From: Isosphaeraceae bacterium
Lineage (GTDB): Bacteria; Planctomycetota; Planctomycetia; Isosphaerales; Isosphaeraceae
Direction of reading: 5' to 3'
Assembly: GCA_025356475.1 (NCBI GenBank)
Contig: JANXSX010000150.1
Coordinates: forward strand, 186,001 to 250,000
DNA: 64,000 bases
Part shown: positions 24,460 through 26,472 of the stretch, piece after piece
How the letters are laid out: the number at the start of each line of letters is the position of its first letter
Numbering within the stretch: position 1 is the first letter of the stretch
Program-made: the position numbers and the translations under genes
The notes under the pieces: generated by a model
The model's input: only the letters and a program-made list of their open reading frames with translations
The model's database searches: none
Told to the model about the DNA's origin: nothing

Positions 24460-24600
24460 GAGGGAGGCTCCAGGGGTGGGTTGGTAAGGTGTCGCATACT
24501 GGACACCTTCTCTTTCAGACTTTATGGTGCATCCCTTGAGCCACGAATCAAGTGGCTCCCCTCCGAATTGGTCAAGATTCCCCCCTGGGCGAACTCTACA

Positions 24601-25104
24601 GTGAGATCATTGCGTTCCGACTTCAGACTGTTCGTTCGCTGGCTCTTGATTCTGGGGTTCTCGGTCTGGTTCGGAGGTTTCACCTTTTACGGAGCCGTCG
24701 TGCTGACCGTACTCCACGACCAGCTCGACCAGCTCACTGCTGGCTCGATTACTCGGGACGTCACGTTTCTGATGAATCTCATTGGACTTGTGTCCATTGG
24801 CTTGATCTGGCTTGATCTGGCGATCGAGGCTCCAAAACGAAAGAGCAAGTTCACCTTTGGGTTACTTGCTCTTCTGAGCTTCATCTCGATCATCCAGATT
24901 GGACTGCTCTGGGGCCATTCCTACCTGGCTCATTGGATCGATGAACGAGGCCTCCGTGGCTTCTACCGAGTCCATACCATCTACCTCAATACGAGCACGG
25001 TCCAGTGGGGGGCGTGCATCCTGTTGATGCTCGCCCTGGTTTACCACTGGACGAAGATCGACCAAATTCGTCAGAATCAACCGTCAGATCAGGCCCCAGC
25101 CTGA
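24601..25104 (+). CDS. Four-helix membrane protein, DUF4149/TMEM205-like
   Basis: About 167 residues from GTG 24601; the frame is open from TTG 24481, but the added 40 residues look uncoded and would overlap the peroxidase promoter region. Four hydrophobic helices are visible, the first two containing WLLILGFSVWFGGFTFYGAV, a pattern seen in DUF4149 proteins (small, GGF-containing membrane proteins). The function is unknown. The 3' end overlaps, on the opposite strand, the last 16 bases of the PEP-CTERM tail described at 25089. The start is uncertain. Confidence 0.65.
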   Translation: MRSLRSDFRLFVRWLLILGFSVWFGGFTFYGAVVLTVLHDQLDQLTAGSITRDVTFLMNLIGLVSIGLIWLDLAIEAPKRKSKFTFGLLALLSFISIIQIGLLWGHSYLAHWIDERGLRGFYRVHTIYLNTSTVQWGACILLMLALVYHWTKIDQIRQNQPSDQAPA

Positions 25105-25217
25105 ACACGCCGCCGTCCGCGTATGACGGTCCCAAGAATTCCCATGCATCCAAGCAGAAGGGTCGATGGCTCGGGTACGGCTGCGCTGGTGAAGTTGACT
25201 GGCGCGTCTAAGCCATT
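25089..25217 (-). other. PEP-CTERM tail in frame behind the TAG stop of the choice-of-anchor A gene
   Basis: Directly after the TAG at 25218-25220 the same frame stays open for 42 codons to TGA. It encodes NGLDAPVNFTSAA, then VPEPSTLLLGCMGILGTVI and RGRRR. This is a textbook PEP-CTERM sorting signal: the VPEPST motif, a hydrophobic helix and a basic end. TAG ends other genes in the window (for example cimA and the receiver fusion), so the codon is not reassigned. Confidence 0.85.
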
Positions 25218-26057
25218 CTAGTAGGGGACGTGGATCTCGTTCGACTGAGTCAATTGGTTGACGAAGACTCCACCATCGACGTTGGCATTCTGGGAATTGA
25301 AGTTTGCCAGAGGTGCCAGAATCGAGGCTGTGAACTGGTTGGAGATCGAGAGTGTGCTGGCGTTCACGAAATTGAAGAGGATATGGGACCGCAAATTTGA
25401 GAAGTCCCCCCCGAACGTATGTCCAACGACAACGTTGGTACCAGTCACATTGATCACAATATTGGATGCACCATTGGCGTTGAGCCGAATCTGATTCCCC
25501 TGGGGATCGTTCAGAATGCTGCCGTTGATCGCAAAGACCGTCAACCCGTTTGCATTAGGGTGGCCATTGAGTACCAGGTCGTGATTCGCCACATTTTGGG
25601 GGAGTGTGACAGTTCCGGTCGAGGTCAGGCCCGAAAAGTAGGTTGAGTCGTTCGTCAGTTCGTTCGCAATTTGGGATCGGGTTGGAACGGCAGTTGTGGA
25701 GTCATAGAAGACGTTGCTCGAGTTGCCGGAATTATTATTGATCTGGCCCGAGATGGCTCCCAGAACTCGCAACCGACCCGATTGGATGTTCGCGTTTGCG
25801 GTCAGGTTGCCCAGGACCGTCAACGAATCGACAGGACTCGCATTCCCCAGGTTTCCGCCGTTGAACCCGACGTTTGAGAAACTACCATTGGCGTTTCCGC
25901 CGATCAAGACCCGGCCCTCGACCTCCGAGCTACCGTTGCGATCACCAATGACGACCAGGTTGTAGTCCGTGAGCAAGCCAGCCCAGGTGAAATTTGCCGA
26001 AACGCAGAACGACAAAGAGACAAAAACCAGATGGGAGACAGTTCGCCAGCGAGTCAT
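25218..26057 (-). CDS. Choice-of-anchor A domain secreted protein, separated from its PEP-CTERM tail by a TAG codon
   Basis: Start taken at ATG 26057 (MTRWRTVSHLVFVSLSFCVS), which begins a signal peptide ending near WAG; the frame is open to 26231. The 279-residue product is the choice-of-anchor A domain: LLTDYNLVVIGDRNGSSEVEGRVLIGGNA, repeated Asn-rich beta turns, and ILAPLANFNSQNANVDGGVF before the end. Proteins of this family are exported and anchored by a C-terminal signal. Here the frame ends at TAG (EIHVPY) and the anchor signal follows in the same frame. The gene is therefore a recent nonsense mutant that secretes an unanchored protein, a readthrough gene, or a sequencing error. Tandem palindromes lie about 135-170 bases upstream of the start. 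Confidence 0.85.
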   Translation of the reverse strand: MTRWRTVSHLVFVSLSFCVSANFTWAGLLTDYNLVVIGDRNGSSEVEGRVLIGGNANGSFSNVGFNGGNLGNASPVDSLTVLGNLTANANIQSGRLRVLGAISGQINNNSGNSSNVFYDSTTAVPTRSQIANELTNDSTYFSGLTSTGTVTLPQNVANHDLVLNGHPNANGLTVFAINGSILNDPQGNQIRLNANGASNIVINVTGTNVVVGHTFGGDFSNLRSHILFNFVNASTLSISNQFTASILAPLANFNSQNANVDGGVFVNQLTQSNEIHVPY

Positions 26058-26189
26058 CAGTGGGTTTTCCGTGGGGCCGAGCGTGTGGATATACGACAAT
26101 GGAAAAACAGAAACATCTTGGACACGATTTATTCTTGGCGGGGTCTGCCAAAAGACAAGGCGTAGATGCAATTTGTTCTTGAGCGTAAG

Positions 26190-26229
26190 TTTTTGTCGCA
26201 AAAAACCTCTTTTTGTCGCAAAAAACCTC
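26190..26229. repeat. Two tandem 20-base palindromic repeats (operator-like)
   Basis: TTTTTGTCGCAAAAAACCTC occurs twice head to tail with no mismatch (26190-26209, 26210-26229). Each copy contains the dyad TTTTTG-TCG-CAAAAA. A spacing of 20 bases is close to two helical turns, so two dimers could bind side by side on one face. It lies upstream of the choice-of-anchor A gene. Confidence 0.8.
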
Positions 26230-26472
26230 AATGACGTCGTCAGCTAGCCTATTAGTAACGAAATCGAGCTATGCTCTAGGTTCAATCTGATGCGTGTTAT
26301 CTCACATGGCTGTTTGAAGTTCTTCCGGTCGACAACATTTCTGTGCCAACCAATTCTCACGAATTGAAGAACTGAACTAAGTTAGAGTGGGTGAGCCCTC
26401 CACAGGATCGGTTCGTCGCGACTCTAGCTGAGATCGAATCATGATCTGAACTGAAGTGCGTTGCGTGATTGA

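Follow-up and report, generated by a model that had tools for sequence, protein, structure and literature searches.

A choice-of-anchor A family gene of a planctomycete ends at an amber codon directly in front of an in-frame, intact PEP-CTERM tail. We consider it probable that a single-base nonsense change, most likely Tyr to TAG, ends the protein before its PEP-CTERM anchor, and that the tail has kept its form because little time has passed since the change. At the level of the sequence the finding is real, and it is ordinary in kind: either Tyr has mutated to amber or the one assembly contains an error.

An amber codon lies between a complete domain and a PEP-CTERM tail

In the window, by which we mean the whole stretch of 64,000 nucleotides analysed, translation of a minus-strand frame (26057-25089) gives 279 codons followed by TAG (25218-25220), then 42 codons and TGA (25089-25091). 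The residues encoded between the two stops are NGLDAPVNFTSAAVPEPSTLLLGCMGILGTVIRGRRRVQAGA. The features of the gene are the following:

25218-26057, minus strand: choice-of-anchor A family gene, 279 codons plus TAG (TIGR04215, 138.2 bits; PF20597, 140.3 bits)
25980-26057, minus strand: apparent N-terminal signal peptide (MTRWRTVSHLVFVSLSFCVSANFTWA), judged by eye from the translation
25230-25982, minus strand: choice-of-anchor A / putative ice-binding-like adhesive domain (PF20597, residues 26-276, profile positions 2-253 of 254)
25218-25220, minus strand: in-frame TAG, aligned with Phe or Tyr in each of the 31 homologues
25212-25223, minus strand: Y-*-N-G, what remains here of the [YF]-x-G motif conserved at the domain's edge (Gly at +2 in 30 of 31 homologues)
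25089-25217, minus strand: in-frame tail of 42 codons with its TGA stop, from the translation
25110-25181, minus strand: PEP-CTERM signal (VPEPST, hydrophobic stretch, RGRRR; PF07589, 30 bits; G000:C163:211110-211181)

The protein belongs to the choice-of-anchor A family by its TIGR04215 score (138 bits against a cut-off of 29), and the PF20597 and TIGR04215 matches describe one complete domain upstream of the TAG, with no frameshift. The TAG is found at the very edge of this domain, on an invariant aromatic column and not in a free linker. By its C-terminus, the encoded protein as written is not a PEP-CTERM protein, as it ends without the motif, which lies beyond the TAG. A search of the PDB returned no sequence match, an AlphaFold single-sequence model of the read-through protein was uninformative (mean pLDDT 36.8), and no promoter or terminator sites above chance were found. 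About 130-175 bases upstream of the ATG, a 20-base unit (GAGGTTTTTTGCGACAAAAA) is present in two head-to-tail copies (window 26188-26233, minus strand). On the other side, a convergent ORF resembling a membrane protein (24481-25104, plus strand) overlaps with its end the last bases of the read-through frame, which extends to 25089.

The tail itself is a genuine PEP-CTERM signal and more than a chance resemblance. It matches PF07589 with 30 bits (E 3.6e-7; cut-off 20.7) and TIGR02595 with 20.9 bits (cut-off 16), so that the preliminary description of a TAG followed by a 42-codon in-frame PEP-CTERM tail up to the TGA is borne out by both the translation and the profile match. By Pfam score the tail ranks sixth among the 22 PEP-CTERM matches in the whole genome; a small held-out model, derived from this genome and family and scoring each tail in its absence, puts it 19th of 22, which is low, yet within the range of intact tails. 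Its codon-usage score (-0.3) is also within the range of other tails, a measure that does not discriminate between extensions. The other 21 matches are in frames of at least 195 codons; the tail behind the TAG, in its frame of 42 codons, is the only one severed from a long open frame.

Homologues carry Phe or Tyr in place of the stop

The read-through protein, with X at the stop, was aligned with 31 homologues, representing 29 loci from the same family of genomes and two loci from a more distant genome; the compared genomes include none of the host's genus. The stop column is occupied by Phe in 16 homologues and by Tyr in 15, with the codons TTC (14), TAC (11), TAT (4) and TTT (2), and the residue at +2 is Gly in 30 of the 31, the two positions defining a conserved [YF]-x-G motif at the domain's margin; relatives typically have LPYYQG, SPYYSG or TPYYRG, as against VPY*NG here. 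A PEP-CTERM-type tail follows in frame in all 31 homologues, with PEP in 30 and the variant PEL in one. An alignment with relatives had been called for in the preliminary description, with a tail in another frame as the outcome that would speak against it; the codon is sense (Phe or Tyr) in every case, and a displaced tail did not occur.

Because TAC and TAT are one transversion away from TAG, and the Phe codons two changes away, an ancestral Tyr is the simplest reading, and the residue replaced was most likely a Tyr encoded by TAC or TAT. What is expected of a nonsense allele is found here: relatives have a sense codon one step away and the remainder of the gene is intact. In several genomes of the family, choice-of-anchor A genes also occur in adjacent pairs (L093/L104 in G013:C1; L102/L089 in G062:C2), and one of the G013 copies sits in an open frame of 785 codons.

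A profile covering the final part of the domain together with the tail was run across 398 genomes of the class, reading through stops, to see how widely the stop occurs. Among the matches listed, about 44 other full-length C-termini were found, none with an internal stop; none of the 31 aligned homologues and none of the roughly 44 surveyed shares the in-frame stop. The only TGA flagged among these C-termini, in G149, is an ordinary terminal stop directly after the arginines, and one flagged in G254 as an internal stop was rejected, being the ordinary terminal stop of an unrelated PEP-CTERM protein. DNA searches for close homologues in the 398 genomes gave short matches only, in 80 loci anchored on RimO a tblastn search with the gene detected no homologue next to RimO, and a first scan of contigs with the read-through protein gave no confirmed close homologue.

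The host has the machinery for sorting and for termination at UAG

The source assembly is a draft of 5.9 Mb in 232 contigs, 99.98% complete. RimO, encoded next to the gene, shares 79% and 76% identity with two Singulisphaera records, which places the host as a planctomycete near Singulisphaera. Three exosortase genes were detected by PF09721 (198-211 bits; G000:C179:5541-6296, G000:C179:32638-33390 and G000:C90:30874-31629), two of which lie on one contig (C179), about 26 kb apart. With three exosortases and 21 other PEP-CTERM frames, a sorting system exists in this organism. RF1 is present (443.7 bits, equivalog match), as is RF2, and no tRNA with a CUA anticodon was found among the 46 tRNA matches in the genome.

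These elements suggest a course of events. The ancestor would have encoded a secreted choice-of-anchor A protein with a PEP-CTERM/exosortase signal, in which a TAC or TAT codon inside the [YF]-x-G motif that closes the domain became TAG. RF1 would then terminate translation at the TAG, and the product, ending in ...EIHVPY, would be exported as a nearly complete domain devoid of the exosortase signal. The three exosortases could not act on such a product, which would presumably be released, or soluble in the periplasm, and not sorted to the surface. The edge of the domain may also be weakened by the loss of its [YF]-x-G motif.

Age of the stop

In a neutral simulation, a rough one with unselected substitutions, a small model and indels ignored, 29% of the trials at 0.05 substitutions per site, and 8% at 0.1, ended with a tail that was still open and scored within 3 bits of the original. 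This suggests that a tail in such condition would rarely outlast about 0.05-0.1 substitutions per site, and gives a hint, no more, of a young stop, of one that does not exist in reality, or of continuing selection on the tail. The last of these bears against a young mutation: weak readthrough that still exposes the tail to selection would be expected to leave it just as intact.

Interrupted PEP-CTERM genes occur elsewhere. Eight loci with short PEP-CTERM frames were taken from the listed best matches of 45 genomes of the family; five were at contig edges, two were fragments within contigs and one (L154, G022:C91:1-1400) is a PEP-CTERM gene interrupted midway by an in-frame TAA (NYSGQPL*TLLATP), on either side of which the frame is open. 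The present case is a neat one in that the stop falls right at the domain edge. PEP-CTERM tail fragments with no normal gene in front were seen at L153 (G004:C44:165700-168000) and L150 (G005:C548), and the stretch upstream of the former repeats 'DTIYPL/TPFIL', resembling a short tandem insert.

An assembly error, readthrough or a reassigned codon

The main competitor of a recent nonsense change is an assembly or base-call error, in which case the organism would have a sense codon for Tyr here and make the usual anchored protein. The source is a draft in 232 contigs, one substitution restores the family pattern exactly, the domain and the tail are both intact apart from the stop, and the stop was seen in no other homologue surveyed, all of which would fit such an error. 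Against this, a wrong consensus base is uncommon where a contig is well covered, and the contig here, at 290 kb, is a long one; moreover, the TAG is not in a homopolymer. We regard an error as a serious but rather unlikely explanation.

Functional partial readthrough of the UAG, for example by a near-cognate tRNA-Tyr restoring the aromatic residue, would yield a minor anchored form alongside a major released form. The tail is intact and in frame, the genome encodes exosortases, and basal readthrough is measurable in E. coli, where at one reporter position 0.7-6% of readthrough of a premature stop was found, depending on the stop (PMC11126739). Low basal readthrough at the TAG is possible. In the same work, however, TAG was less leaky than TGA (PMC11126739), and here it replaces a conserved residue. 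Conservation of an in-frame stop is a published criterion for distinguishing readthrough genes from pseudogenes and sequencing errors, one which species-specific readthrough escapes (PMC1914089), and this stop is conserved in no homologue. Nor is there any sign of special leakiness at the site: the RNA downstream folds no better than shuffled sequences (z 0.38), and the base after the TAG is A, the commonest follower of TAG stops in this genome (20 of 66, in a set of called genes with a stricter length cut), these being measures of a stimulatory context that is poorly defined in bacteria. A suppressor tRNA was not found among the 46 tRNA matches. Functional partial readthrough is thus improbable, and harder still to credit is a translational switch in which the UAG is read at a useful rate, perhaps by tRNA-Tyr, to give a released adhesive domain and a minority of exosortase-anchored protein. 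The one observation in favour of regulated readthrough is the intact tail, and a literature search found nothing joining PEP-CTERM with readthrough, or PEP-CTERM with choice-of-anchor.

Genome-wide reassignment or efficient suppression of UAG, with a full-length protein, would leave the frame open with TAG read as Tyr; reassignment of the code was rejected and the reading as a whole is scarcely tenable, since TAG terminates 80 of 548 called genes in the 790 kb sampled (66 of 452 under the stricter length cut), RF1 is present and the 99.98% complete genome has no detected CUA tRNA, an unassembled suppressor tRNA being the only remaining route to genome-wide suppression.

Of the three origins that the preliminary description had left side by side, a recent stop and an error both agree with the sense aromatic codon and in-frame tail of all 31 homologues, whereas readthrough gained no specific support. 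A recent nonsense change is the one that we favour.

Comparison with known systems

If the allele is real, nature has in effect set up a small experiment in which one domain can be compared with and without its exosortase signal, in a phylum with many PEP-CTERM proteins. For now the case is chiefly a warning, since a recent mutation or a consensus error can be expected to leave just such a picture in a single draft genome: one stop with an intact tail in frame behind it.

The gene resembles other choice-of-anchor A substrates of the PEP-CTERM/exosortase (EpsH) system in its signal peptide, as judged by eye, its single domain, its in-frame tail of normal composition and the exosortases of its host; it differs in the TAG between domain and tail, a region uninterrupted in all 31 aligned homologues. 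In Listeria, premature stop codons in inlA are described as giving a truncated, secreted internalin A (PMC5131979, citing Nightingale et al. 2005). As far as that account goes, the likeness is that a stop placed upstream of a C-terminal sorting signal leads one to expect secretion without anchoring; the signal here, however, is for an exosortase and not a sortase, and the allele is known from the sequence of one assembly. In mammalian LDHB and MDH1, translational readthrough exposes a hidden targeting signal (PMC4359377; PMC5133446), which likewise lies in frame just after the stop. Here, in contrast, the stop is unconserved and has no known readthrough context, it is a bacterial UAG as opposed to a stop in a mammalian context, and the case rests on the DNA. 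Were regulated readthrough demonstrated, the gene would be a bacterial counterpart of the hidden peroxisomal signals; as a recent nonsense allele, it would be comparable to inlA in its outcome.
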